Source: Ruegeria arenilitoris
GTDB lineage: Bacteria; Pseudomonadota; Alphaproteobacteria; Rhodobacterales; Rhodobacteraceae
Reading direction: 5' to 3'
NCBI RefSeq assembly: GCF_013030985.1
Contig: NZ_WPYP01000013.1
Span: 1-64,000 of the forward strand
DNA: 64,000 nt
Under the pieces are notes generated by a model. That model did not search any database, was not told the origin of the DNA, and was given only the letters and a program-made list of their open reading frames with translations. Below, in pieces: positions 38,170 through 52,967 of the stretch. How positions within the stretch are numbered: position 1 is the first letter of the stretch; each line of letters starts with the position of its first letter. A program made the position numbers and the translations under genes.

Positions 38170-38811
38170 CTACACAAATAGCAAGGCGCCGTTCAGGTCG
38201 AAATGCTTCGGGAACATTGCACGCAGAAATCGAAAAACAATTCTCATAGCCTCGTCGCGATCAAATGAATCCGGGTGGAGCAGATAATCGGTCCACATGC
38301 CTTCCAGCATTGCGAGTGTGCCGTGCGTAGCGTCTCGTGCAACCTGGTTGGGGTGTTCGGTTCCGGCTTCTTTTGCAATTCGAGCGAATGCGTTGAAAAC
38401 CAGATTACGAAGCTTTGCATCGCGGGTATCTGAAAACGCAGCGATTGCCGCTCTGTTTCGGGCCTCGCCGCGAAATGCGTACCAAATTGAAACATTCTTC
38501 TTGTTGAGAATGGCTTCACTCAAGTCGCCCCTAACAATCATCTCAATATGTTCTTGACCCGTTTGTCCGGTCTTTTCCAGCAAAGCATAGATGCCGTCGT
38601 AGTATTGTTCGGACGAGTAGCGGACGGCTTCGTCAACCAAGTTGTCCTTGCCGCCAAAATGAAGGTGAATCATGCCACGGGACAGCTCGGCGCGTTGAAT
38701 GATTTCGCTGACTGAGGTCTCGGAAATCCCTTTCTCTGCGACCGAGTCGAGTACTGCCTCAATCAGGGAAAGGCGATTTCGTTCGCGTATTTCTTGTCGT
38801 CTTCCAGTCAT
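38170..38811 (-). CDS. BetI-like TetR regulator
   Basis: A 213-residue TetR protein. The helix-turn-helix spans about residues 12-58 (LIEAVLDSVAEKGISETSVS, RGMIHLHFGGKDNLVDEAV), and the C-terminal domain is BetI-like (LNKKNVSIWYAFRGEA, AMLEGMWTDYLLHPDSFDRD, MFPKHFDL). BetI-type regulators often sense choline, betaines or other amines. It is divergent from the Pot-type transporter operon, and a 20-base palindrome lies in the gap. A related but broken gene lies at 48731-49111. It probably represses the amine operon. Confidence 0.88.
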   Translation of the reverse strand: MTGRRQEIRERNRLSLIEAVLDSVAEKGISETSVSEIIQRAELSRGMIHLHFGGKDNLVDEAVRYSSEQYYDGIYALLEKTGQTGQEHIEMIVRGDLSEAILNKKNVSIWYAFRGEARNRAAIAAFSDTRDAKLRNLVFNAFARIAKEAGTEHPNQVARDATHGTLAMLEGMWTDYLLHPDSFDRDEAMRIVFRFLRAMFPKHFDLNGALLFV

Positions 38812-38933
38812 TTGATCAGGCGGCTTTGTTTGTTTTCAGTCTCTTGCGGTGCCTTCTAACGGCCAGTGTGAAATTTGCCAGCACCGGTTGCGAAATTATC
38901 AGTTGACACAACTAGCCCAAAAATTCCAGATTT

Positions 38934-38953
38934 AAATGGACGATTGTCCATTT
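38934..38953. promoter_or_regulatory. 20-base palindrome, BetI-like operator
   Basis: AAATGGAC (38934-38941) and GTCCATTT (38946-38953) form a perfect 8-base dyad around GATT. A TTGACA box lies 25 bases to its left (38903-38908). It sits between the TetR start (38811) and the permease start (39002), consistent with control of the operon. It also lies just before the first in-frame codons of an upstream extension, which argues for the ATG at 39002. Confidence 0.75.
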
Positions 38954-39001
38954 TGTGATCGACATCGTTTTGCAGCCAAATACGAAGTTCAGCAGGGAAG
39001 C

Positions 39002-39865
39002 ATGGCCGGAGTACTACGAAGTGAAACGGGCAGGGGCCTGGCGCTGAGCGCGCCTGCGACGCTCTACGTCGGCCTGCTTGTAGCCGTGCCTCTTTGCATT
39101 CTTGTCGCCTACAGTTTTTGGACCCAGACATATGTCGAGATTGACCGGACCCTGACATGGGCGAACTACCAAGAGGCATTTACCGACCCCTTGGTTCGGC
39201 ACCTGATGATCCGTTCAGTCGCAATTGCGGGTGCGGTGACATTGGCAACGGTCTGTCTGGCCTATCCGATTGCCTACTTCATCGCGTTTCGGACACAGAA
39301 GAAAACCCTCTGGCTGTTGTTGATCACCATTCCCTTTTGGAGCAGCTACCTTCTGCGTGTGTTCAGCTGGAAACTAATTCTTGGCTTCAACGGGGTGTTG
39401 AACTCGGCGCTGATTTCACTGGGACTGATAGAAGAGCCGCTGACATTCCTGCTCTACAACGAATTCGCCGTAGTTCTCACACTAGCCCATGCATGGGCGC
39501 CATTTGCGATCCTGCCGATTTATGTGTCGCTCCAAAAGATTGACCGTAGCCTGCTGGAGGCCGCAACCGACCTTGGCTGCAGTAAGATAGAACGGTTTGT
39601 GCGGGTGACTCTGCCCCTGACGGTGCCGGGGATCATTGCTGCCTGCCTGATCATATTCATCCCTACGGTGGGAGATTACGTGACCCCAGCTCTGGTCGGC
39701 GGATCGCAGGGTAAAATGGTTGCGAACTTGATCCAAGTGCAGTTCGGCGCCGCCAATAACTGGCCGTTGGGTGCAACCCTGTCTCTGCTTGCCATGCTAT
39801 CGGTCGGCTGCGTTGCAATCCTTTTCGTAGTGGTCATCACCGCGCTGGGAAGGAGGATCAGATGA
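39002..39865 (+). CDS. PotB-type ABC permease
   Basis: The ATG at 39002 (287 residues) with AGGGA upstream is preferred to an open frame from 38936, which would run through the operator. Six membrane helices are visible, with the EAA loop in LLEAATDLGCSKIERFVRVTLPLTVPG (about residues 183-209). This is the spermidine/putrescine-type permease family. It overlaps the next permease gene by four bases. First gene of an operon that continues with a second permease, ATPase, binding protein and three amine-degrading enzymes. Confidence 0.9.
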   Translation: MAGVLRSETGRGLALSAPATLYVGLLVAVPLCILVAYSFWTQTYVEIDRTLTWANYQEAFTDPLVRHLMIRSVAIAGAVTLATVCLAYPIAYFIAFRTQKKTLWLLLITIPFWSSYLLRVFSWKLILGFNGVLNSALISLGLIEEPLTFLLYNEFAVVLTLAHAWAPFAILPIYVSLQKIDRSLLEAATDLGCSKIERFVRVTLPLTVPGIIAACLIIFIPTVGDYVTPALVGGSQGKMVANLIQVQFGAANNWPLGATLSLLAMLSVGCVAILFVVVITALGRRIR

Positions 39866-40656
39866 CCAAGGCGTTTCGTATCTCATGGTTGCTGGTTTAT
39901 GCGATCGCCTATCTGGTGTTTCTCTACTTGCCGGTTTTGCTATTGCCGCTGTTTTCGTTCAACGACGGAACTATCGTGGCCTTCCCACTAAAAGGGTTCA
40001 CGTTGAAGTGGTACGCGCAGTTGGGGCAGCAGGACACGTTGCTACAGGCAATGGTGAATTCGCTGATCGTCGGCAGCGTGACCGCCCTGATGGCAACATC
40101 GCTGGGTCTTTTCGCAGCACGTGCCTATGTTCGGTATCGTTTTGCAGGGCGCGAGTTATCAGAGGGACTGGTCATGCTTCCGCTGGTCATTCCCGGTATC
40201 ATCGTTGCCAGTTCGATGCTGGTTCTGTTCATCAGCATCGGCTTGAAACCATCGCTGACCACTGTGATCCTCGGGCATGTGTTCGTGGCGCTGCCCTTTT
40301 CCGTGTCGATCATGAAATCTGCCTTTGACGATTTCGACCAGTCCTTGGAGGAAGCCGCGTTCGACCTTGGTGAAAGCGTTGTGGGAACGTTTCGGCGCGT
40401 TACATTGCCAATCGTCGCACCGGGCATCATCGCCAGTCTTTTGGTTACCTTTACCGTGTCTTTTGACGAGTTTGTTCTGGCCTTTTTCCTATCCGGGAAC
40501 AGCCCGACATTGCCGGTCTATATCTGGAGCCAGATCCGCTTCCCGGCAAAATTGCCCAACACGCTGGCGCTTGGGTCGCTGCTTTTGCTGTCTTCGGTCC
40601 TGCTGCTGTTGATTGCCGAGTATTTCCGCCGCCGTTCCATCCAATCGTCAGATTGA
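39862..40656 (+). CDS. PotC-type ABC permease
   Basis: A 264-residue permease with six helices and an EAA loop (SLEEAAFDLGESVVGTFRRVTLPIVAPG, about residues 162-189). It pairs with the preceding PotB-type permease through a four-base ATGA overlap. The FVLAFFLSGNSPTLPVYIWSQIR region near the end is typical of the family. Confidence 0.9.
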   Translation: MTKAFRISWLLVYAIAYLVFLYLPVLLLPLFSFNDGTIVAFPLKGFTLKWYAQLGQQDTLLQAMVNSLIVGSVTALMATSLGLFAARAYVRYRFAGRELSEGLVMLPLVIPGIIVASSMLVLFISIGLKPSLTTVILGHVFVALPFSVSIMKSAFDDFDQSLEEAAFDLGESVVGTFRRVTLPIVAPGIIASLLVTFTVSFDEFVLAFFLSGNSPTLPVYIWSQIRFPAKLPNTLALGSLLLLSSVLLLLIAEYFRRRSIQSSD

Positions 40657-40676
40657 AGCCAAAGGAAGCGAACAAG

Positions 40677-41792
40677 ATGAGCGAACAGAACATCATCGAA
40701 ATACTGGGCGTCGAAAAACGCTTCGGATCTTTTGTGGCTGTCTCAGACCTGAACCTCACCTTGAAAGAGGGTGAGTTCTTTTCACTGCTTGGCCCCTCTG
40801 GCTGCGGAAAAACAACGGCTTTGCGCATCATTGCAGGTTTTCAGGATCACGAAGAAGGCGAGATCAGGATTGATGGCTTAACGATGGGTGGGGTGCCGGC
40901 CAACAAGCGTCCCACCAATATGGTGTTCCAAAGCTATGCGATCTTTCCGCACCTGAATGTCGGTGACAATGTTGGCTTCGGATTGCGCAAGACAAAGCTC
41001 TCGCGGAAGGAAATCAAAGAACGGGTTGCTGAGGCGCTTGAGATGGTTGAGCTTGGCGGCTTGCAGGACCGTAAGGCCAATGAGTTGTCGGGCGGTCAGC
41101 GGCAACGTGTGGCGCTCGCCCGAGCACTCGTCATGCGGCCTAAAGTGTTGTTGCTCGATGAGCCTTTATCCGCATTGGACAAAAATCTGCGCGAAGCGAT
41201 GCAACTGGAAATGCGCCGTCTTCAGCAGAAGCTTGGAATTACTTTCGTCATGGTCACGCACGACCAGTACGAGGCGATGACCATGTCCGACCGCATCGGC
41301 GTCATGTTCGCGGGGCAGCTCAAGCAGGTGGATAAACCAGAGGTCCTGTATTCCCAACCGTGTAATCGGGAAGTGGCGTCTTTCATCGGTGGAATGAACT
41401 TTCTCGATGCCGAGGTAACGGCAGAGAACCCTGAAGCGCTGGAAGTCAACGTTCAGGGCTTTGGGCAGATGAAAATCGGGGTGAACCCCAACGTTCAGGT
41501 GCATGACAAGGAACTTCTTGTCGGCGTCCGGCCTGAGCAATTGGAAATCAGTGCGGAAAAGCCGGATGGATACGATGCCCTTGTTCAGGGCGAAGTTTCG
41601 GACGTCGCCTTCTATGGTGAGAGCGTCCACTATTATGTGCGCGTCGATGGTCTGAAAGACAGCATCGCCGTTGCAGTGCCAAACTACTTTCACACAGTCG
41701 ATCACAACCGCAGCGATACCGTCTGGCTTGGCGTTCAAAGCGCCTCGGTGATCGATTTGGGTAAACGTGAATCTTTGGGAGGAGACAAATGA
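40677..41792 (+). CDS. PotA-type ABC ATPase
   Basis: The ATG at 40677 (371 residues) has AAGGAAG about eight bases upstream. Walker A (LGPSGCGKTTALRI, about residue 38), signature (LSGGQRQRVALARAL, about residue 139) and Walker B (VLLLDEPLSALDK) are intact. A C-terminal TOBE-like regulatory domain runs from about 240 (VGVRPEQLEISAEKPDGYDAL). It ends in a four-base overlap with the binding-protein gene. Confidence 0.92.
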   Translation: MSEQNIIEILGVEKRFGSFVAVSDLNLTLKEGEFFSLLGPSGCGKTTALRIIAGFQDHEEGEIRIDGLTMGGVPANKRPTNMVFQSYAIFPHLNVGDNVGFGLRKTKLSRKEIKERVAEALEMVELGGLQDRKANELSGGQRQRVALARALVMRPKVLLLDEPLSALDKNLREAMQLEMRRLQQKLGITFVMVTHDQYEAMTMSDRIGVMFAGQLKQVDKPEVLYSQPCNREVASFIGGMNFLDAEVTAENPEALEVNVQGFGQMKIGVNPNVQVHDKELLVGVRPEQLEISAEKPDGYDALVQGEVSDVAFYGESVHYYVRVDGLKDSIAVAVPNYFHTVDHNRSDTVWLGVQSASVIDLGKRESLGGDK

Positions 41793-42844
41793 AAAAAACA
41801 GCATCACTTACGGCAGCAGTAGTTGCCACCTTTACCGCCAGCCAAGCTCTCGCGAATGCAGCTGATCTGACCGTTTTTGACTGGTCCGGATATGAGGATC
41901 AGGGTTTCTTCGGCGACTATGTCGAAAAGTACGGCGGCCCGCCCAGCTACACCTATTTCGGCAGCGTGGAAGAGGCGTTCACCAAGCTTCAATCCGGGTT
42001 TGAGGCCGATCTGGCTCATCCCTGCACCGATGCCCTGAGAAAATGGGTCGCCGCGGACATGCTTAAGCCGATCGATACCAGCAAGCTGGAGAACTGGGAT
42101 AAACTGATGCCCAAGATCAAAGAGGTCGATGGCATCACGATCGACGGGCAGACCTATATGGTGCCGTTCGAATGGGGCAACACCGGCCTGATTTACCGCA
42201 CCGATATGGTTTCGGCGGATGATGTTTCGCTGCAGCTGCTAGCAGATCCGGCCTATCAGGGCAAAGTTGCGGTTCCGGACGCAGCGTCCAGTGCGTTTGC
42301 CATGGCCGCACTAGCAACTGGCGCCTCCAGCTATACCGATATGAGCGACGAGGAATTCCAAAAAGCGGCGGACTACCTGCGCGCGATTCATCCGAATGTG
42401 CGCTTTTACTGGTCTGACGCTGGCCAGCTGGATCAGGCTATTGCCAGTGGAGAGGTGACACTGGGCTGGGGCTGGAACCAATCGGAACTGAACCTGATCT
42501 GGAACGAAACTCCGGCGGTCATGATGCGGGATGTGGACAAGGGCATCGCCACCTGGGTTTGCGGCTATGTGCATCTGAAATCTGCCAAGCAGTCGGATGA
42601 ACAGGTCTATGACATGCTCAACGCCCTGAGTTCGGCTGCCAGCGGCAAGTACATCATCGAAAGCTGGGGGTACGCCCATGCCAACGAGGACGCGTTTGCG
42701 CAGGCAGACCCGGCACTGATCGAAACCTACGGGTTCTCAGACGTGGATAGCTTCTTTGAAGGCAGCCTGTTCTTTGACGCGGTTAATCCCGAGCTGGAAG
42801 CCAAGATGTTGAAGGAGTTCGAGCGCATCAAGGCCGGCTTTTAG
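41789..42844 (+). CDS. PotD-type periplasmic binding protein
   Basis: A 351-residue protein with a signal peptide (MKKTASLTAAVVATFTASQA and LA). The mature part follows the spermidine/putrescine-binding fold: LTVFDWSGYEDQGFFGDYVE, SVEEAFTKLQSGFEADLAHP, MVPFEWGNTGLIYRTD and QAIASGEVTLGWGWNQSEL. GGGAGGAGAC precedes the ATG. Relatives bind polyamines but also betaines and other amines, and the enzymes downstream make an N-methylated amine or betaine the likely substrate here. Confidence 0.88.
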   Translation: MKKTASLTAAVVATFTASQALANAADLTVFDWSGYEDQGFFGDYVEKYGGPPSYTYFGSVEEAFTKLQSGFEADLAHPCTDALRKWVAADMLKPIDTSKLENWDKLMPKIKEVDGITIDGQTYMVPFEWGNTGLIYRTDMVSADDVSLQLLADPAYQGKVAVPDAASSAFAMAALATGASSYTDMSDEEFQKAADYLRAIHPNVRFYWSDAGQLDQAIASGEVTLGWGWNQSELNLIWNETPAVMMRDVDKGIATWVCGYVHLKSAKQSDEQVYDMLNALSSAASGKYIIESWGYAHANEDAFAQADPALIETYGFSDVDSFFEGSLFFDAVNPELEAKMLKEFERIKAGF

Positions 42845-42937
42845 GACCATCTAACAACACAACCGGGATTGGCGGGACCTTAGAAACCCCTCCATTCCCT
42901 CGAAACTATTTCCGATTTTTTTGGAGGAAGCGCAGCA

Positions 42938-45004
42938 ATGTCAGGCGCTGACGGATATTCTGTTCTCTTTGAACCGGTTCAGATAGGGCCAGTGACGGCC
43001 CGAAACCGCTTCTATCAGGTGCCCCATTGCAACGGTATGGGGCACCTGCGACCGCAGGCCGAAGCTGCGATGCGGGCAATGAAGGCCGAAGGCGGTTGGG
43101 CCGTTGTGTCCAATCAAGAGACGGAAATTCATCCGACGTCTGACCTGTCCCCTTATGCCGAGAACCGGCTATGGGACGAACGGGATATCCCGGCGCTGCG
43201 TCTGATGACAGAAGCTGTGCACAGCAAGGGGTCACTGGCGGCAATTGAATTGGCGCACAACGGCCACCATGCGCAAAACCACCTGAGCCGGGCGCCTTTG
43301 TTGGCCCCGTCAGAACTCGCCCTGCAAACTGCGTACCCAAAGCAGGCCAGGGCGATGGATAAGGCGGACATTCGCGAATTCCGCAAGTGGCACCGCGCAG
43401 CGGCGCGCCGTTCACGCGAAGCGGGCTTTGACATCGTGTATGTCTATGCCGGGCATCATATGACCCTGCCGCACCACTTTCTGTTGCCACAATTCAATGA
43501 CCGGACCGATGAATACGGCGGCTCGTTGGAAAACCGGGTGAGGCTTACCCGTGAGCTTCTGGAAGAAACCCGGGAAGAGGTTGGGGACGATTGCGCCATT
43601 GCCCTGCGGTTCGCGGTCGATGAAATGCTCGGATCGGATGGGATGCAGGCGCAGGAAGAAGGCCGAGCCGTTGTCGAATTGCTGGCCGAACTGCCAGACC
43701 TTTGGGATGTAAACGTCGCGGATTGGAGCAACGACTCTGCAACGACCCGCTTTGAACCCCGGGACGGCTTTCAAACCTCCTATATCGAATTCGTCAAACA
43801 GGTGACCTCCAAGCCAGTGGTGGGCGTCGGGCGCCTTACCTCTCCGGACTTGATGGTGTCACTGGTCAAGAAAGGCATTCTTGATTTTATTGGCGCGGCG
43901 CGACCATCCATTGCTGATCCATTTCTTCCCAATAAAATCAATGAAGGTCGCATCGAAGAAATCCGCGAATGCATCGGCTGCAATATCTGTGTTTCATCCG
44001 ATACGTTGGGCGTTCCAATCCGCTGTACCCAAAACCCGACGATGGGCGAAGAGTGGCGGAGAAAATGGCACCCTGAGATCATTGGGCGCCGGGAGAAAGA
44101 GGAAGCTGCGCTTGTTGTCGGCAGCGGACCAGCCGGACTTGAATGCGCCATGCAATTGGCGCGTCGCGGCTATGAGGTGACGTTGGCCGAAGCCAAGCAA
44201 GAGCTTGGTGGACGTGTGTTGCAAGAATCCAGCCTGACCGGTCTATCCGCCTGGAAGCGTGTGACAGATCACAGAATTTATGACCTTCAGCAACGAGGGA
44301 ATGTCCAGCTGTTCACCGACAGCTGTTTGTCAACAAGCGAGGTGGTCGAGTTGGGCATACCAAATGTCTTTCTGGCCACCGGCACGACATGGCGGCGAGA
44401 TGGTCGCGGAAAATCTGCGTTTCAGGGCGTTTCGATAGATCCAAGCTCTCAAGTGTTGACACCGGACGACATTATGTCGGGCACAATGCCTGGGGATGGC
44501 CCGATCATGGTCTACGATGATGACCAAGCTTATCTCGGAGGAGTTTTGGCGGATCATTTGGCTCAGTCCGGACGAGAGGTCGTCTTTGTGACGCCGGCCT
44601 CAATAGTATCGCCGTTTACCGAATTGACGTTGGAACAGGCCAAAGTGCAACGCAGTCTGTTGGAAAAAGGCGTTCAACTGAACCTGTCCCAGACACTGGT
44701 CAATATCGCGCCCGGTCGGGCGACATTGCAGTGCGTCTACACGGGACGAGAGCATTCCGTTGAATGCAGTTCTGTCGTGCTCGTGACGCAGCGAATGCGA
44801 GAAACCACCCTTTACGATGGGCTATGCGGTTTGGCTGCGAGTCCGCTGAATACGTTGGAATTGATCGGAGATGCCGCAAACCCAGGCTTGATCGCGGACG
44901 CTGTTTATTCGGGCCACATGGCTGCCCGAAATTTCGAACGCGACGCGGGCGATATCGACCGCGAATTTTTCCGCCGAGAAATCGTTTCCCTTGAATCTGT
45001 ATGA
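42938..45004 (+). CDS. Trimethylamine dehydrogenase-like flavin/Fe-S N-demethylase
   Basis: A 688-residue protein with the full TMADH layout: an FMN barrel (about 1-340), a 4Fe-4S site (Cys345, Cys348, Cys351, Cys363) and a nucleotide-binding C-terminal half (LVVGSGPAGLECAMQLARRG, about 392-411). Cys31 in QVPHCNG matches the cysteine that binds FMN covalently in TMADH. The catalytic Tyr170, His173 and Asp266 are present. Two of the three bowl aromatics are replaced (Glu61 and Asp355; Trp263 is kept; comparison from memory), so the substrate is probably not trimethylamine. StcD, linked to N-methylproline demethylation, belongs to this family. It precedes a Rieske oxygenase gene. Confidence 0.88.
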   Translation: MSGADGYSVLFEPVQIGPVTARNRFYQVPHCNGMGHLRPQAEAAMRAMKAEGGWAVVSNQETEIHPTSDLSPYAENRLWDERDIPALRLMTEAVHSKGSLAAIELAHNGHHAQNHLSRAPLLAPSELALQTAYPKQARAMDKADIREFRKWHRAAARRSREAGFDIVYVYAGHHMTLPHHFLLPQFNDRTDEYGGSLENRVRLTRELLEETREEVGDDCAIALRFAVDEMLGSDGMQAQEEGRAVVELLAELPDLWDVNVADWSNDSATTRFEPRDGFQTSYIEFVKQVTSKPVVGVGRLTSPDLMVSLVKKGILDFIGAARPSIADPFLPNKINEGRIEEIRECIGCNICVSSDTLGVPIRCTQNPTMGEEWRRKWHPEIIGRREKEEAALVVGSGPAGLECAMQLARRGYEVTLAEAKQELGGRVLQESSLTGLSAWKRVTDHRIYDLQQRGNVQLFTDSCLSTSEVVELGIPNVFLATGTTWRRDGRGKSAFQGVSIDPSSQVLTPDDIMSGTMPGDGPIMVYDDDQAYLGGVLADHLAQSGREVVFVTPASIVSPFTELTLEQAKVQRSLLEKGVQLNLSQTLVNIAPGRATLQCVYTGREHSVECSSVVLVTQRMRETTLYDGLCGLAASPLNTLELIGDAANPGLIADAVYSGHMAARNFERDAGDIDREFFRREIVSLESV

Positions 45005-45012
45005 GGTGCGCT

Positions 45013-46212
45013 ATGCCAAAAGATGACTTGCAAGTAATGCGCGACTTGATGGAAGCGCAACGGGAAGGGTTCGCCTTGCCGCGTCACTTCTATACGTCTC
45101 AGGCAGTATACGAGAACGATATCAGTACGTTCTGGAATCGTAACTGGATCTGGGTCGGCCATGTCAGCCAAATCGCTGAACCCGGTGACTACTTCCTCTT
45201 CGACTACGGGCCCGAGTCCGTGATTATCGTTCGGGATCGCGAGGGCGAGGTGCGCGCGCATCTGAACGTATGCCGCCACCGGGGATCGCGGGTTTGCGTT
45301 GAAAAGAAAGGCAAGGCGCGCAATTTCATCTGCCCCTATCACGCGTGGACATTTGACCTGAACGGCAAGCTCAGAAACGGGCGGTCAATGGGGGCGGATT
45401 TTGATCCAGGCCAGTACGGATTGTTCCCGGTGCAGGTGAAAGTTTTCCAGGGCTTAATTTTTGTTTGCGTAACGGAAGACGCTCCGCCGCTGGATGCTGC
45501 TTTAGAGAGGCTGGCTCCACTTTCAAAGCCGTTCGATTTTGAGAACCTGAAGGTCGCTCATGAAGCCTCGTATCCGGTTCCTGCGAACTGGAAACTGGCC
45601 TTGGAGAACTATCTGGAATGCTATCACTGTGCCCCGTCCCATCAGGAGTATTCGCGCAGCCATTCCCTGAAAGACCCCGCTCAGGTTCTGGAGTTCAGCG
45701 GGGCACTTCATGAGCGGATGGAAGAGGCTGGAATACCTGCTGAGGAGCTGGACCTGACCGGAGAAAACGCTGTTGCGCCGGGCGCAGATGTGTATTGGCG
45801 GCGCTACCCACTGTTCCCCGGCTACATGACGGGCAGCAAGGACGGTGCGCCCCTGGCTCCGCCTTTGGGTGAACTGAAGGGCCACGATGGCGGCGCCACT
45901 GATCTAGGGATCGGTACGCTGAACTACTTCCTTGTCTATGCAGATCACGTGGTCGGGTACCGGTTCGTGCCGCGCGCCATGCAAGACACGGATATCCAGA
46001 TCGTCTGGTACGTGCGTGGAGATGCGGAAGAGGGGCGCGACTATGACAAGGATGCCCTGACATGGCTGTGGCATGTCACGTCGCTCGATGACGAACGGAT
46101 CATACGGCACAATCAGGAAGGTGTGAACTCGCACCACTTCGTCCCCGGACCACTGTCCGAGATGGAATGGAGCATTCCAGGCTTCTATCGCAACTACTTC
46201 AGCATGATCTGA
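45013..46212 (+). CDS. Rieske non-heme iron oxygenase, betaine N-demethylase type
   Basis: The ATG at 45013 (399 residues) follows GAGGTG and lies eight bases after the previous stop. The Rieske site is Cys87, His89, Cys107 and His110 (NVCRHRGS, FICPYHAW). The mononuclear iron ligands include His205 and His210 (ECYHCAPSH), with a later Asp in SLDDERI likely the third. The family includes Stc2 (stachydrine demethylase), GbcA and similar quaternary-amine monooxygenases, which remove a methyl group as formaldehyde. No dedicated reductase gene (GbcB-like) is in the operon, so electrons must come from elsewhere, or from the neighbouring flavoprotein. Confidence 0.9.
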   Translation: MPKDDLQVMRDLMEAQREGFALPRHFYTSQAVYENDISTFWNRNWIWVGHVSQIAEPGDYFLFDYGPESVIIVRDREGEVRAHLNVCRHRGSRVCVEKKGKARNFICPYHAWTFDLNGKLRNGRSMGADFDPGQYGLFPVQVKVFQGLIFVCVTEDAPPLDAALERLAPLSKPFDFENLKVAHEASYPVPANWKLALENYLECYHCAPSHQEYSRSHSLKDPAQVLEFSGALHERMEEAGIPAEELDLTGENAVAPGADVYWRRYPLFPGYMTGSKDGAPLAPPLGELKGHDGGATDLGIGTLNYFLVYADHVVGYRFVPRAMQDTDIQIVWYVRGDAEEGRDYDKDALTWLWHVTSLDDERIIRHNQEGVNSHHFVPGPLSEMEWSIPGFYRNYFSMI

Positions 46213-46237
46213 GACGCGCAAAATTCGGAGAAAGAAC

Positions 46238-47806
46238 ATGACAGAACTAACGCAGCGCAGATCAAGGCGGCGCGGGGGCGGACGTGAGGCGCGCGCAGCA
46301 GTACGAGCCAGTAACGCCCCTTCGCAGGCGATCTGGCCGGGCATTCCCGGTGGACGATACAAGCCCTTGTCAGGCGCGGACATGTCGCGCATTCACGAGG
46401 CCGCACTCAGCATTCTGGAACGCACAGGGGTCGGGGACCCCACGAAAGAAATTCTCGATCTCGTGGTGCCAAAGGGGGCAACGGTGAACGAGCATGGCAG
46501 GCTGTGCTTTCCTCGGTCCTTGATGGAAGACCTATTGGCCAAGGCGGCTAGCGAATTCTATGTCCATGCACGCGGATCGCGGGCCGGGAAGGACGACATG
46601 CACTGCACCAAGGACAAGGTGTATTACGCAAACTCCGGCACCGCTGTGACCACGTTTGATGCGGAAACGCGCAGTTACCGACCATCAACGCTTAAAGATA
46701 TTTACGACTTTACCCGTTTGGTAGACCGGCTCGACAACATCCACATGACTGGTGATACGGTTTTGGCAACGGATGTTCCTCAGGATTATGAGCATGACAT
46801 GAGTATGCTCTACGCCATTCTGGCGGGCAGCGAGAAACCTTCCTGCCTGACGTTCCGTACGCGCGAGCATATTAAAGACGCAATCCATCTGTTCGATCTG
46901 GCGTCGGGCGGGGAGGGCAAGTTCCTTGAAAAGCCCTCGGTGATTTTTGGCGGGTGCCCCATCGTTTCACCGCTCAGATTTGGGCGGGAAAATCTGGAAA
47001 TCCTGATCGATACAGCGAAAATGGGGCTTGTCTGCGACCTGGCCGTCCCACCACAAGCTGGGGCTACGTCTCCTGCGCCATTGGCTGGTACGCTGGCGCA
47101 GGCGGTGGCAGAGACGTTGTCATGTGTGGCCATCGCCAATTTGATCAATCCGGGTACCCCGGTGGTCTTTGCCGCGTGGCCGTTTATTACCGATCTGCGC
47201 ACTGGATCGTTTACGGGTGGCAGCGGCGAACAGGCGTTGATTTCAGCCGCCGCTATTCAGATGGGCAATTTCTATAACCTGCCGACCAGCGTCGGTTGCG
47301 GCATGACCGATTCCAAAATCCCCGACGCGCAATATGGGTTGGAGAAGGCGCTGACCTTCGCGTTGGCGGCTCATGCCGGGGCCAACAGGCTCTGCGAGTT
47401 TGGTGGGATGCTTGGCAGTTTGATGGGGTGTAGCTTTGAGTCAATGGTCATCGATAACGAAGCTGCGGGCATGATCTCGCGAACGCTTCGCGGGATCGAG
47501 GTTAGCGATGACACGCTTTCGGTCGACGTCATCCATGACTGCGCAATCGACCCCGGACATTTCCTTGGTAACACTCAAACCTTGCAATACATGGAAACTG
47601 AGTTTGTCTACCCGACACTGATGGACCGAGAGCTGACAGATACCTGGGAGAAAGCCGGTCGTCAGGACATGTTCGAACGGAGCCGATCTGTTGTGAATGA
47701 CATTCTGTCCAATCACTACCCAAACTACTTTGGCAGTAAGGTGGACGAAGAGGTTCGGTCCAAGTTCCCGATCAAATTGCCGCCCGAGGCAATGCGCGCC
47801 GGATAA
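46238..47806 (+). CDS. MttB-family (non-pyrrolysine) methyltransferase
   Basis: A 522-residue protein of the trimethylamine methyltransferase (MttB) superfamily: IHEAALSILERTGVGDPTKEIL near residues 50-71, VIFGGCPIVSPLRFGREN, TSPAPLAGTLAQAVAETLSC, SVGCGMTDSKIPDAQYGLEK and LCEFGGMLGSLMGCSFESMV. There is no in-frame UAG, so it is not a pyrrolysine enzyme. Non-Pyl relatives demethylate glycine betaine (MtgB), proline betaine (MtpB) or carnitine (MtcB) onto a corrinoid protein. No corrinoid protein or reactivator is in this window. The basic N-terminus (RRSRRRGGGREAR) is unusual. Last gene of the operon. Confidence 0.88.
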   Translation: MTELTQRRSRRRGGGREARAAVRASNAPSQAIWPGIPGGRYKPLSGADMSRIHEAALSILERTGVGDPTKEILDLVVPKGATVNEHGRLCFPRSLMEDLLAKAASEFYVHARGSRAGKDDMHCTKDKVYYANSGTAVTTFDAETRSYRPSTLKDIYDFTRLVDRLDNIHMTGDTVLATDVPQDYEHDMSMLYAILAGSEKPSCLTFRTREHIKDAIHLFDLASGGEGKFLEKPSVIFGGCPIVSPLRFGRENLEILIDTAKMGLVCDLAVPPQAGATSPAPLAGTLAQAVAETLSCVAIANLINPGTPVVFAAWPFITDLRTGSFTGGSGEQALISAAAIQMGNFYNLPTSVGCGMTDSKIPDAQYGLEKALTFALAAHAGANRLCEFGGMLGSLMGCSFESMVIDNEAAGMISRTLRGIEVSDDTLSVDVIHDCAIDPGHFLGNTQTLQYMETEFVYPTLMDRELTDTWEKAGRQDMFERSRSVVNDILSNHYPNYFGSKVDEEVRSKFPIKLPPEAMRAG

Positions 47807-47870: not shown

Positions 47871-48730
47871 CTAAGTCTTGAAAACCCCTTGGCGCGTCAG
47901 GTCGTCGGTTGCCAGCCGGATTCCTTTTTCAAGGATGTCGAACATCTCGTTTAATTCGCCCTCCGTGATGATCAGCGGAGGGGAGAACACACACATGTTG
48001 ATGATTGGCCGCAAGATCAGCCCGTTTTCTTGGCAATGGTGATCAATCATCGCACCAACGGACTTATCCAGATCCAATAAATTGTCAGCTTCGGCATCCG
48101 CGACGCATTCAACGCAGCCAACCAGACCCATGCCACGGGCATCGCCGACCAGCGGAAAGTCGGCCAGAGCCTGAAGGCGCTCTTTGAACAGCGGCGTGAT
48201 CGCGCGGACATGTTCCAGAACGCCGTCGCGTTCCTTGATTTCGATGGTTTTCAAACCTGCTGCTGCGCTCACTGGATGGCCCGAATACGTGAAACCGTTT
48301 GAAAAAGTGGCGTTCTGCCCGTTGTCTCGGCTCACATCTGCAATCAGCCGATCAGAGATGATACAGGCCCCCATAGATACATACCCGGACGTCATGCCCT
48401 TGGCGCAAGTTATGATATCAGGTTGAATTCCAAAGACATCTTCCGATGCAAACCAATGTCCAAGCCGTCCAAATCCGGTTACGACCTCGTCCGAAATATA
48501 CAGGACATCGTATTTCCGGCAGATTTCCAGACAGCGCTGATGATACCCATGCGGAGGCACAATGACGCCACCAAAGCACAAGATCGGTTCAGCTATGAAA
48601 GCAGCGACCTTGTCTGCTCCGGTCTGCAGGATCATGTTTTCCAGATCAGCAATTTTTTCGTCCAGGAAGTCATCGATCGTCTGATCGGGGCGAAGCGTGT
48701 AAGGGTTCACGTTCGGCAAAAACCGCGTCA
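47871..48730 (-). pseudogene. Class III aminotransferase, N-terminal third or more deleted
   Basis: About 285 codons match the C-terminal two thirds of a PLP class III aminotransferase: VAAFIAEPILCFGGVIVPPHGYHQ, DVLYISDEVVTGFGRLGHWF (PLP Asp) and DIITCAKGMTSGYVSMGA (PLP Lys). The N-terminal 170-200 residues, including the phosphate-binding part and start, are absent. The frame runs out at about 48730, where the plus-strand BetI-like remnant begins. It cannot fold as a normal enzyme. Relatives act on omega-amines, beta-alanine, taurine and similar compounds. Confidence 0.85.
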
Positions 48731-49111
48731 AGCCCTGTGGACAAGCTGATCTCAATCATAAAGGCGGATTTTGACCCGTTGGTTCTTAATGCGCGGGACG
48801 TTGCGATCTGGATTTCGTTTCGGGCCGAAGCGCTCTCGAATCCACTCATATTTCCTTTCATCGACTCGCGAGACAAAGGTTTCCGAGCGGTGATACTGGA
48901 CTTGTTGTAGCAAATTAAGAGCGAAGGTGAGTACGAAGACGTCGACGTCAAACTTGCAACAGACGCGTTGATCGCTTTGCTGGAAGGGCTCTGGACTGAC
49001 TTCCATTTGCACTCAGATATCTTCAACCCAGACGAGGCTTTGAAGGTCTGCTTCTATGTACTGCAGTCAGTGTTTCCGAACCACTTCGGAACCCTGTCGA
49101 TCCACAGGTGA
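48731..49111 (+). pseudogene. BetI-like TetR regulator, N-terminus deleted
   Basis: From 48731 one frame reads SPVDKLISIIKADFDPLVLN, ARDVAIWISFRAEALSNPLI, then after an in-frame stop at 48908, ATDALIALLEGLWTDFHLHS and YVLQSVFPNHFG, stopping at 49111. This is the ligand domain of a BetI-type TetR protein. The DNA-binding half is missing. It matches the intact regulator at 38170 in the same positions (AMLEGMWTDYLLHPDSF, MFPKHFDL). It abuts the aminotransferase remnant head to head. Confidence 0.85.
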
Positions 49112-49724: not shown

Positions 49725-50750
49725 TTGAAAAATCTGAAGATTACACTGGCAGGTTCGCTGGTCGCATTTGCGGCGTCGCTTAGTGCAGCCCAAGCTGACA
49801 AGCTGACATTTTATTGCTCGGCACAGGAAGATTGGTGTCAACTCATGGCCCGCAGTTTCGAGGATGCTACTGGGATCGACGTTAACATGACCCGCAAGTC
49901 GTCGGGTGAAACGTTCGCGCAAATTCGCGCCGAAAGTTCGAACCCCAAAGGTGATGTATGGTGGGGCGGTACCGGTGATCCTCATTTGCAAGCTGCCGAA
50001 GAAGGTCTGACGATGGAGTACATGTCACCAATGCGTGACCAGTTGCATGACTGGGCTATTTCACAGGCCGAAAGTGCAGGTAACAAGACCATCGGAATTT
50101 ATTCCGGCGCACTGGGCTATGGCTACAATTCCGACCTTTTGGCCGCAAACGGCCTGCCGGAACCCGCATGTTGGAAAGATCTGCTCAAACCGGAATACAA
50201 AGGGCACGTACAGATGGCGAACCCGAATTCCTCGGGCACCGCTTATACGACGCTGGCCTCGATGGTCCAGATTTTTGGCGAGGACGAAGGCTTTGAGTTC
50301 ATGAAGGGCCTGCACTCCAATATCAACCAATATACCAAGTCGGGTTCAGCCCCTATCAAAGCCGCCGGGCGGGGTGAGAACACCATTGGCATCGTCTTCA
50401 TGCATGATGCGGTCAAACAGGCGGTGTCCGGTTTTCCTGTAAAAGTCGTGGCCCCATGCGAGGGTACAGGCTATGAGATTGGCTCGATGTCGATCATCGA
50501 AGGCGCTCGGAACGAAGAGGAAGCCAAAAAGTTCTATGACTGGGCGCTCAGCCCCGAGGCCCAGAATCTCGCGCTTGAGGTTAACGCCTTTCAGGTTCCG
50601 TCCAACAAAAACGCGGAAACCTCTGATAGCGCGCCTGACATGAGCCAGATCAAGCTGATTGACTATGACTTCAAAAAGTACGGCTCGTCAGACGAACGTA
50701 AGCGTCTTTTGCAGAAATGGGACGAAGAGGTCTCTGTTCTGCCTCAGTAA
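49725..50750 (+). CDS. AfuA-type periplasmic binding protein, probably for a phosphorylated sugar
   Basis: A TTG start at 49725 with GGGGAGGAAA just upstream begins a signal peptide (MKNLKITLAGSLVAFAASLS and AAQA) in a 341-residue protein. It belongs to the FbpA/AfuA group usually annotated as ferric-iron binding. The tandem tyrosines that hold iron in FbpA are not present. Instead His227, Asp228 and Glu251 match, with identical spacing, the His205, Asp206 and Glu229 that I recall contacting hexose phosphate in Actinobacillus AfuA. The context of phosphatase genes supports an organophosphate substrate. Confidence in the binding-protein call is high; the ligand is inferred. Confidence 0.82.
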   Translation: MKNLKITLAGSLVAFAASLSAAQADKLTFYCSAQEDWCQLMARSFEDATGIDVNMTRKSSGETFAQIRAESSNPKGDVWWGGTGDPHLQAAEEGLTMEYMSPMRDQLHDWAISQAESAGNKTIGIYSGALGYGYNSDLLAANGLPEPACWKDLLKPEYKGHVQMANPNSSGTAYTTLASMVQIFGEDEGFEFMKGLHSNINQYTKSGSAPIKAAGRGENTIGIVFMHDAVKQAVSGFPVKVVAPCEGTGYEIGSMSIIEGARNEEEAKKFYDWALSPEAQNLALEVNAFQVPSNKNAETSDSAPDMSQIKLIDYDFKKYGSSDERKRLLQKWDEEVSVLPQ

Positions 50751-52967
50751 GTGACTGACACCACAACAAAAACGACCCATCCGGTATTGATCTTTTGGAT
50801 CATCGCCGGGTGGGTCGGTTTCTGCCTGTTGCCATGGTTCATGTTAGAGGACGGCATATGGTCATTCGTATGGCTGATGGATGGATATCCGTTCGACGAA
50901 GACTATGCACCCGCCGCTTTCCTGATTGGGCAAGGCGAAAAGCTTTGGCTTGCGCCGCTATTGGTCCCGCTTGCCTTGCCATTATTGATACTCGGTAAAC
51001 CGAAGTCCGATCCACAATACGCACGCATCCTGATATTGGCCGGGGCCCTGGGTTTTGGCTGGCTAATTGCGCAAGGGTTCTCAATTGGCATTCGCGGGTT
51101 CAATTTCGACTGGATGAAAGCGCTGTTCGGAGAGCCAAAGATCCGCCAGTTCGGCATGGGGTACGGCGCAATGATCTGCGCCACCGCATTTCTGTTTCTG
51201 TTGACCCAAGGCATTGCGGCGCGCGGTGCCATTAACGGCGACGTTTTCGTCGTCAGCGCGATTGGCGGCGTAATCACCATTGTCACGGTTTTCGTCTTTT
51301 TCCCGATTGCGAAGATGCTGTTTGCCGCCTTCGTTACCGAGGATGGTGCCTATTCAGTTTCGGTTTTTGCTTCGAAATTCTTTGATGACCGACTTTGGGG
51401 CCTGGGCTGTTTTGCCGGTGCAAAATGCGGTGCCGCGTGGAACTCACTGTTTCTTGCAGTTCTTGTGGGCTTCATCACGACTGCGCTTGGCCTTTGTTTC
51501 GCACTTGTCGTCACGCGGTCAGGTTTCCGCTTTAAACGCGGGATGCGCGCGCTGACGGTCCTGCCGATTATCACTCCGCCTTTCGTGATCGGCCTCGCGC
51601 TGATCCTGTTGTTCGGGCTATCCGGCTCGGTCACCAGATTTGTGGCCGAGATCTTTGGAGTTCAGCCGACGCGGTGGCTATACGGCATGCCCGGGGTGCT
51701 GATTGCTCAGACACTAGCATTTACGCCAATCGCCTTTCTGGTTTTGATCGGGGTGGTCGAAGGGGTGTCCCCTTCGATGGAAGAGGCCGCCCAAACCCTG
51801 CGGGCCAACCGTTGGCAAACCTTCAAAACCGTATCACTGCCTTTGATGCGCCCCGGCCTGGCCAATGCCTTTCTGCTGGGGTTCATCGAGTCCATGGCCG
51901 ACTTTGGCAACCCACTTGTCTTGGGCGGGAATTTCGATGTGCTGTCGACCGAGATTTTCTTCGCCATCGTTGGCGCGCAATACGATCAGGGCCGCGCCGC
52001 CGTCCTGGCCATGGTGCTCTTGTTCTTCACACTTTCCGCGTTTTATGCGCAGCGCGCGTGGTTGGGAAAAAAAAGCTATACCACCGTTTCAGGTAAAGGC
52101 GATGCGGGCGTGCATCCGTTGATGCCACGCGGCCTTGCCATACCGGTTCTGGGCGTCGCAATTGCCTGGGCGATTTTCACCGCCGTGGTCTACGGGATGA
52201 TCATCTACGGGAGTGTCGTCGAACTGTGGGGCGTCGATAACTCGTTGACGTTCAAGCACTACGTCACGGCCTTCTCTGTCCGCTTCGAGGAAGAGGGCAT
52301 TCGCTGGACCGGAGCCGCCTGGGACAGTTTCTGGACCACGATCACCATCGCCGCCATTGCCGCGCCATTGACTGCAGCAGTGGGGCTGGTCACAGCCTAT
52401 CTGCTGACACGGCAAAACTTTGCGGGCAAGAATGCGTTTGAATTCGGCACGATGCTTTCCTTCGCCATTCCCGGCACCGTTATTGGCGTTAGCTATATCC
52501 TGGCATTCAACGTGCCCCCGATCGAGATCACTGGCACGGGCGTTATCCTTGTCGTCAGCTTTATCTTCCGCAATATGCCGGTTGGGGTTCGCGCGGGTAT
52601 CGCGTCGATGTCGCAGTTGGACAAATCTCTCGACGAGTCCTCGCTAACGCTTGGTGCGAACTCGTGGCAGACATTCAGGCGGGTCATTCTTCCGCTTTTG
52701 CGCCCAGCCATCCTGGCTGCGTTGGTCTACAGTTTTGTTCGGGCAATGACGGCCATTTCGGCGGTGATTTTCCTCGTTTCGGCCGAGTATGACATGGCCA
52801 CCAGCTATATCATCGGTCGGGTCGAGAATAACGACTATGGTCTTGCGATCGCATATTCCACAACGCTGATCTTCGTGATGCTGGCGGCTGTCGGGCTTTT
52901 GCAATTCCTCGTGGGCCGGGTTCAGATCGGGCGGCGCACGCAACTCGGAGCAGAGAAAACGACATGA
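50751..52967 (+). CDS. AfuB/FbpB-type two-domain ABC permease
   Basis: A 738-residue fused permease with two copies of the permease domain and two EAA loops (SMEEAAQTLRANRWQTFKTVSLPLMRPG, about residues 342-369; SLDESSLTLGANSWQTFRRVILPLLRPA, about residues 624-651). The GTG start at 50751 is directly after the binding-protein stop. There is an N-terminal extra region of about 220 residues with several helices, so the protein is longer than FbpB (about 510). It overlaps the ATPase gene by four bases. Confidence 0.88.
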   Translation: MTDTTTKTTHPVLIFWIIAGWVGFCLLPWFMLEDGIWSFVWLMDGYPFDEDYAPAAFLIGQGEKLWLAPLLVPLALPLLILGKPKSDPQYARILILAGALGFGWLIAQGFSIGIRGFNFDWMKALFGEPKIRQFGMGYGAMICATAFLFLLTQGIAARGAINGDVFVVSAIGGVITIVTVFVFFPIAKMLFAAFVTEDGAYSVSVFASKFFDDRLWGLGCFAGAKCGAAWNSLFLAVLVGFITTALGLCFALVVTRSGFRFKRGMRALTVLPIITPPFVIGLALILLFGLSGSVTRFVAEIFGVQPTRWLYGMPGVLIAQTLAFTPIAFLVLIGVVEGVSPSMEEAAQTLRANRWQTFKTVSLPLMRPGLANAFLLGFIESMADFGNPLVLGGNFDVLSTEIFFAIVGAQYDQGRAAVLAMVLLFFTLSAFYAQRAWLGKKSYTTVSGKGDAGVHPLMPRGLAIPVLGVAIAWAIFTAVVYGMIIYGSVVELWGVDNSLTFKHYVTAFSVRFEEEGIRWTGAAWDSFWTTITIAAIAAPLTAAVGLVTAYLLTRQNFAGKNAFEFGTMLSFAIPGTVIGVSYILAFNVPPIEITGTGVILVVSFIFRNMPVGVRAGIASMSQLDKSLDESSLTLGANSWQTFRRVILPLLRPAILAALVYSFVRAMTAISAVIFLVSAEYDMATSYIIGRVENNDYGLAIAYSTTLIFVMLAAVGLLQFLVGRVQIGRRTQLGAEKTT

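Follow-up and report, generated by a model that had tools for sequence, protein, structure and literature searches.

Why does one operon of Ruegeria arenilitoris place a flavoprotein, an oxygen-dependent Rieske oxygenase and an MttB-type methyltransferase behind a single importer, and do the three enzymes act one after another? The operon occupies positions 38170-47806 of a 64,000-nucleotide stretch of contig NZ_WPYP01000013.1, referred to here, in its whole length, as the window; G000 denotes the genome that holds the window, and L-numbers denote compared loci. An earlier note on this DNA read the operon as a stepwise removal of methyl groups from a quaternary amine by three different chemistries.

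We propose, at a probability of about one half, that the operon serves to import and break down a quaternary ammonium compound, with the Rieske oxygenase and the MttB-type protein as alternative first demethylases and the flavoprotein and then an aminotransferase following. As far as sequence can tell, its assignment to quaternary-amine demethylation is supported, because the operon combines a Group V Rieske motif with an MttB-type protein devoid of pyrrolysine, and because a BCCT gene takes the place of the importer in some relatives. This part of the earlier reading stands, while its three successive steps are less likely than two alternative first steps joined to a common later one, since 13 of 26 transporter-linked loci carry only one of the Rieske and MttB genes.

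In the proposed scheme, PotBCAD would import the compound, and the first methyl group of its quaternary nitrogen would be removed by either of two enzymes, as the gene distribution suggests. The Group V Rieske oxygenase would do so with O2 and an unlinked reductase, releasing formaldehyde; by the other route, the MttB-type protein would pass the methyl group to MtgC, the genome's one, shared corrinoid protein, from which MtgD would transfer it to tetrahydrofolate, a RACo-type activase keeping the cobalt reduced. The flavoprotein, of the histamine/trimethylamine dehydrogenase type, would then oxidize the tertiary and secondary amine so formed, and the final primary amino group would be taken off by a class III aminotransferase.

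Organization of the operon

Open reading frames and Pfam and NCBIfam matches place a BetI-like TetR gene, potBCAD and the flavoprotein, Rieske and MttB-type genes in the following order, all eight at the positions and in the families that had been proposed for them.

38170..38811, minus strand: TetR/BetI-like regulator, divergent from the operon; PF13977 TetR_C_6 58 bits; BetI models 94-98 bits, under their cut-offs
38936..39865, plus strand: PotB-type ATP-binding cassette (ABC) permease; NF007044 PotB 201 bits against a cut-off of 348
39862..40656, plus strand: PotC-type ABC permease; NF007047 PotC 176 bits against a cut-off of 326
40653..41792, plus strand: PotA-type ABC ATPase; TIGR01187 potA 365 bits, above the cut-off of 355.6
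41789..42844, plus strand: PotD-like substrate-binding protein; PF13416 79 bits
42938..45004, plus strand: histamine/trimethylamine dehydrogenase-type flavoprotein; Oxidored_FMN and pyridine-nucleotide domains; motifs for 6-S-cysteinyl-flavin mononucleotide (FMN) and 4Fe-4S
45001..46212, plus strand: Group V-type Rieske oxygenase (quaternary ammonium class); PF00355, PF00848; Glu-Cys-x-x-Cys motif
46238..47806, plus strand: non-pyrrolysine MttB-superfamily methyltransferase; PF06253 350 bits; Met356 at the pyrrolysine position

The PotB/PotC, PotC/PotA, PotA/PotD and flavoprotein/Rieske junctions each overlap by 4 bp, so that the layout indicates one transcription unit; gaps of 93 bp and 25 bp separate PotD from the flavoprotein and the Rieske gene from the MttB-type gene.

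Gene distribution among relatives

Relatives were gathered from 61 genomes and from a search of named contigs, in which 80 loci were kept out of a larger number of matches; 20 flanked regions were fetched from the genome hits. Once eight duplicate loci had been merged and those below 60% identity excluded, 37 non-redundant flavoprotein loci remained, the window included, and 26 of them have a linked transporter (Pot in 23, BCCT in 3). Gene order is conserved, and two interchanges are seen within it. Both Rieske and MttB genes occur in 13 of the 26 transporter-linked loci, Rieske alone in 6, MttB alone in 7 and neither in none, all of these genes being near full length with no in-frame stop. 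Upstream of the flavoprotein and MttB genes, a BCCT gene replaces PotBCAD in 3 of the 26 (PF02028 485-489 bits in the four BCCT proteins scanned), which lends support to a quaternary substrate.

On a flavoprotein tree of 35 loci, from which L103 and L114 were left out for their short downstream sequence, parsimony counts at least seven changes for the Rieske gene and at least five for MttB, and independent pairs never change the same way. The distribution is thus suggestive, though not significantly so, of alternatives rather than successive steps. Alternatively, MttB, Rieske and flavoprotein could each remove one methyl group in succession, loci short of one enzyme using a paralogue. The 13 loci that carry all three enzymes in one operon agree with such a series, as does the presence of MttB and Rieske paralogues elsewhere in the genome, but Rieske or MttB is absent from the other 13, and known MttB members and Group V Rieske enzymes, in the passages available on them, both act on quaternary nitrogen and so both fit the first step. 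We regard three successive demethylations as unlikely.

Several observations tell against Rieske and MttB as alternative first demethylases ahead of the flavoprotein and aminotransferase. The either/or pattern across the 26 loci is not significant (Fisher's exact p 0.146), and the tree offers at most two informative independent pairs, too few to test. Loci with a single enzyme could use paralogues elsewhere, the window's genome having 12 MttB and 5 Rieske genes. The flavoprotein stands without Rieske or MttB in 5 of the 9 transporter-less loci with at least 1.4 kb of downstream sequence, some of these nine having upstream sequence too short to show a transporter. The aminotransferase is missing from 10 of the 26 loci and damaged or cut in four more, including the window; no Rieske reductase is linked to the operon; and the nearest solved relatives of the flavoprotein are named histamine dehydrogenases, oxidizers of primary amines, so that its demethylase role is putative and its reaction on the operon's substrate uncertain.

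The 11 loci in which no transporter was seen comprise three with Rieske (one cut by a contig end), two with MttB, five with neither and one cut off. Clustering of neighbors over 45 loci, duplicates included, yielded 11 clusters common to at least three loci: flavoprotein, TetR, PotC, PotA, MttB, Rieske, PotD, PotB, aminotransferase, BCCT and frames antisense to PotD. A corrinoid protein, a reactivator and a Rieske reductase are not among them, in agreement with their reported absence from the operon.

On a SAR324 contig (L127), a stretch of about 10 kb carries a flavoprotein at 58% identity, an MttB piece at 48%, an aminotransferase at 59%, Pot proteins at 40-60% and a Rieske protein at 34%. 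The window's own genome has a decayed second copy (L046 4456-8267, G000:C31), consisting of a BCCT gene followed by flavoprotein and MttB fragments.

Rieske oxygenase and candidate reductases

The Rieske protein aligns over residues 17-388 of 403 with 3vca/4qup (243 bits) and, over its N-terminal half (residues 23-220), with the carnitine oxygenase CntA (139 bits). We take 3vca/4qup to be Stc2 because the aligned Cys202 and Cys205 carry the numbers given for Stc2 in passages of PMC10952381. According to the same passages, a bridging Glu and a Cys-x-x-Cys beside the mononuclear iron mark the Group V Rieske enzymes, whose substrates are quaternary ammonium compounds; the window protein has both, as Glu206-Cys207-Tyr-His-Cys210, and falls in this group. 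It does not qualify as GbcA, reaching 291 bits with model NF058607, far under the cut-off of 670.

A genome search for the reductase, which the earlier note had called for, returned eight PF00175 matches. Six of these proteins were scanned. Four of them have FAD and NAD domains together with a Fer2 domain at the C terminus; in another Fer2 comes first, and the sixth has no Fer2. The four are unlinked candidates; one of them adjoins a BCCT gene (G000 C4:1158-3975), and about 11 kb separate it from the nearest PF00848 oxygenase.

MttB-type protein and probable shared corrinoid system

The MttB-type protein belongs to the non-pyrrolysine MttB superfamily: PF06253 matches at positions 1-489 of 500, the frame is uninterrupted with no in-frame amber codon, and Met356 aligns with the pyrrolysine of M. 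barkeri MttB (7xcl alignment). Its score to MtgB (2qne) is 223 bits. The ten best fold matches of an AlphaFold model of modest confidence, used for the fold alone (mean pLDDT 72, with 136 of 522 residues below 50), are all to MtgB, to MttB, by itself or complexed with MttC, or to a Sinorhizobium MttB-like protein (template modeling score 0.70-0.78, root-mean-square deviation 10-11 Å). Passages of PMC12155760 describe known members without pyrrolysine as demethylating quaternary amines or phosphocholine.

The earlier note found it unusual that the operon has no corrinoid protein or reactivator. This is instead what would be expected, because a shared MtgC/MtgD/RamA set has been published, in the passages available of PMC12478193, and matching parts are present in the genome. 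In 2025, Mausz et al. (PMC12478193) reported for R. pomeroyi, in those passages, that MtgC and MtgD act in methionine synthesis as well as in glycine betaine demethylation, and suggested that further MttB-type genes feed into this route. A search for an unlinked corrinoid protein in the window's genome found a single B12-binding_2 protein, adjoining a DUF1638 gene, a single RACo-type activase and, as the MtgD candidate, a pterin-binding protein similar to CdhD (C1:634317). The parts of an MtgBCD-type system, with a separate corrinoid protein, are thus present, and an orphan corrinoid system was rejected. Two further B12-binding matches, in frames 713 and 668 codons long, are probably mutases. 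The pterin match at C1:127189 was set aside in favor of C1:634317, which alone has the CdhD similarity; judged by eye from its sequence features, the C1:127189 gene is presumably a folP beside glmM. Passages of PMC12478193 place R. pomeroyi metF2 beside mtgD; here metF2 is not beside the MtgD candidate, one neighbor of which is PPK2 and the other without a Pfam match.

PF06253 matches 13 proteins of the genome, twelve full-length and one fragment, and the window's copy is divergent, scoring 350 bits where the best paralogue scores 780. Twelve full-length genes exceed the "up to seven" MttB-family genes that PMC12478193, in the passages available, gives for related bacteria. The nearest paralogue compared (40% identity) lies in L047 (4467-14318, G000:C31), where two ureohydrolases and an OpuAC-type glycine-betaine ABC transporter follow the MttB gene and a dimethylglycine dehydrogenase-like gene precedes it; a guanidino-betaine is a conceivable substrate of that cluster.

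Flavoprotein

Enzymes of the trimethylamine dehydrogenase (TMADH)/histamine dehydrogenase family have a cysteine that binds FMN covalently, a catalytic Tyr, His and Asp, and four cysteines for a 4Fe-4S cluster, and the substrate site of TMADH itself is a bowl of three aromatics. The window flavoprotein has all the family residues, including Cys31, Tyr170, His173 and Asp266 that had been predicted. Across the 37 loci, Tyr170, His173 and the cluster cysteines (Cys345, Cys348, Cys351 and Cys363) are kept in 37, and Cys31 and Asp266 in 36 each. The two bowl positions said to be altered are indeed so, Glu61 and Asp355 standing there in 37/37 loci, so that Trp263 is the one aromatic left among the three and the protein is not a TMADH proper. 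Its nearest solved structures are histamine dehydrogenases at 751 (3k30) and 696 bits, followed by an unnamed Oxidored_FMN protein at 635 and TMADH (1djn) at 516, and by this comparison it is closer to histamine dehydrogenase than to TMADH.

Passages of PMC10180351, which also cover the cofactors of the family, list Gln65, Ile74, Phe77, Glu79, Asn115, Tyr181, Trp267 and Asp358 as residues proposed to form the histamine site in the N. simplex enzyme. By alignment these correspond in the window to Glu61, Leu70, Tyr73, Glu75, His111, Met175, Trp263 and Asp355. Glu75, Trp263 and Asp355 are thus kept, Leu70 and Tyr73 are similar, and Glu61, His111 and Met175 are changed; Glu75 and Trp263 are invariant (37/37), while His111 is found in 35 and Met175 in 36 of the 37 loci. 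Judged by these alignments, the site differs from that of TMADH and does not exactly match that of histamine dehydrogenase either. In L080 (5380-14315), L156 and L173, three or four tandem genes of the flavoprotein family stand beside Pot genes, with no Rieske or MttB match in the stretch.

Aminotransferase, transporter and substrate

A class III aminotransferase lies within 6.5 kb in 16 of the 26 transporter-linked loci, on the same strand in 11; of these 16 copies 12 are intact, and those of the window, L068, L072 and L104 are truncated, broken or cut. Its linkage suggests a primary-amine end product. In the window it had been overlooked, together with the remnant of a second TetR gene (47871-49105), both of which have intact linked counterparts in relatives.

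47871..48755, minus strand: truncated class III aminotransferase; matches residues 193-478 of the 478-residue L062 relative
48737..49105, plus strand: remnant of second TetR gene; residues 107-229 of 230

Both genes are whole in L062, and compared with it a deletion in the window has joined the 3' part of the aminotransferase gene to the 3' part of the second TetR gene. Farther downstream (49725-52967) lies what is apparently a separate importer, made up of an extracellular solute-binding protein and an ABC permease that contains two BPD_transp_1 stretches.

Gene context points weakly to a substrate that is either agmatine/putrescine-like or betaine-like. The acidic spermidine contacts of Escherichia coli PotD are Glu36, Glu171 and Asp257, according to passages of PMC4096761. 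At these positions, the window PotD-like protein aligns Gly, Ser and Cys, and the acidic contacts are thus lost. Aligned Trp and Tyr residues, which we take to lie in the binding site, are kept.

A sister operon in the same genome (L181 3644-11607, G000:C8) consists of a TetR gene and aminotransferase, AguA-like, AguB and PotBCAD genes, and probably serves agmatine. Its full-length aminotransferase is 81% identical to the window copy and its Pot proteins 53-66% identical; AguB scores 445 bits (cut-off 410) and the AguA-like protein 278 bits (under its cut-off of 382). At the Glu171 position its PotD has an acidic residue, and the Glu36 and Asp257 positions carry Gly and Cys as in the window, so that only position 171 separates the two operons. 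Elsewhere, AguB lies upstream in a Sulfitobacter locus (L117) and agmatinase in two Leisingera loci and one Rhodobacteraceae locus (L100, L101, L109), and a ureohydrolase directly adjoins a wider-family flavoprotein in L134 and L150, where the frames are open, and in L131, where it has two internal stops.

These genes, together with the oxidation of agmatine and putrescine by histamine dehydrogenase reported in passages of PMC10180351, bring in a polyamine- or agmatine-like substrate with a free amino group, which the flavoprotein and aminotransferase would deaminate at that end, Rieske and MttB demethylating the quaternary product later. PotD has lost its acidic spermidine contacts, however, AguA-like genes occur in none of the 117 loci searched, and ureohydrolase genes are common in the genus, with 4-12 in each of 23 genomes, this one included, so that nearby copies are weak evidence. 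Their number per genome and the two stops in the L131 copy also undercut the case for a strong agmatinase linkage. Deamination before demethylation appears rather unlikely to us. More doubtful still is the specific proposal that the O2-dependent and the cobalamin-dependent enzyme are interchangeable first demethylases of a quaternary agmatine- or putrescine-like amine at high and low O2 (or B12), with the rest of the operon reusing agmatine catabolism.

Tentatively, the substrate may instead be a simple betaine, such as gamma-butyrobetaine, beta-alanine betaine or taurine betaine, leaving an omega-amino acid for the aminotransferase. The BCCT exchange, the loss of acidic contacts in PotD beside its retained Trp and Tyr, and the carboxylate that most known MttB-superfamily substrates bear, in the passages available of PMC12155760, all suit such a compound. 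An anionic tail would, however, be unexpected next to the invariant acidic Glu61, Glu75 and Asp355 at the mapped histamine-site positions; no aldehyde dehydrogenase cluster recurs among the 45 loci; and since PotD of the sister agmatine operon is also without two of the three acidic contacts, their loss alone is no mark of a betaine.

We found no support for the earlier substrate guesses, homarine, trigonelline and stachydrine, and no open-licence paper among the matches listed ties such an operon to either of the first two. A phosphonate link, raised by a phosphodiesterase and an aldehyde dehydrogenase in L119, was dropped as confined to one locus. Passages of PMC10130141, on R. pomeroyi transporters, hold no assignment for the transporter of this operon, and among the matches listed from the open-licence literature, judged by title, start of abstract or passages, no paper describing the operon is apparent.

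If Rieske and MttB do serve one step, the operon would be a clear example from nature of two unrelated enzymes, one dependent on O2 and the other on B12, that substitute for each other within a pathway. Our proposal would also provide a role for one of the numerous MttB proteins still unassigned in the genus, and would point towards a nitrogen compound in the sea whose breakdown is not described in open-licence papers among the matches listed.

Comparison with known systems

The operon is a variant on known parts, namely an MtgBCD-type system, a Group V Rieske oxygenase, the histamine/trimethylamine dehydrogenase family and PotABCD. With the MtgBCD system of R. pomeroyi, as described in passages of PMC12478193, it shares an MttB-family protein, a separate corrinoid protein with a DUF1638 gene, a RACo-type activase and a pterin-binding methyltransferase, whereas its MttB-type gene is divergent and stands in an operon with Rieske, flavoprotein and Pot genes. 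The stachydrine demethylase Stc2 and CntA have the same Rieske and mononuclear-iron motifs, with Glu and Cys-x-x-Cys at the aligned place, but the operon here is without a reductase gene and the similarity amounts to 243 bits (3vca/4qup) and 139 bits (CntA). Full-length similarity, the covalent-FMN Cys, the Tyr-His-Asp triad and the four cluster cysteines join the flavoprotein to histamine and trimethylamine dehydrogenase, while Gln65, Asn115 and Tyr181 of the N. simplex histamine dehydrogenase are replaced by Glu61, His111 and Met175. The importer, finally, is built of the same four families as the PotABCD spermidine/putrescine importer, with PotA above its subfamily cut-off, and differs from it in PotB, PotC and PotD, which fall under the model cut-offs, and in the loss of PotD's three acidic spermidine contacts.

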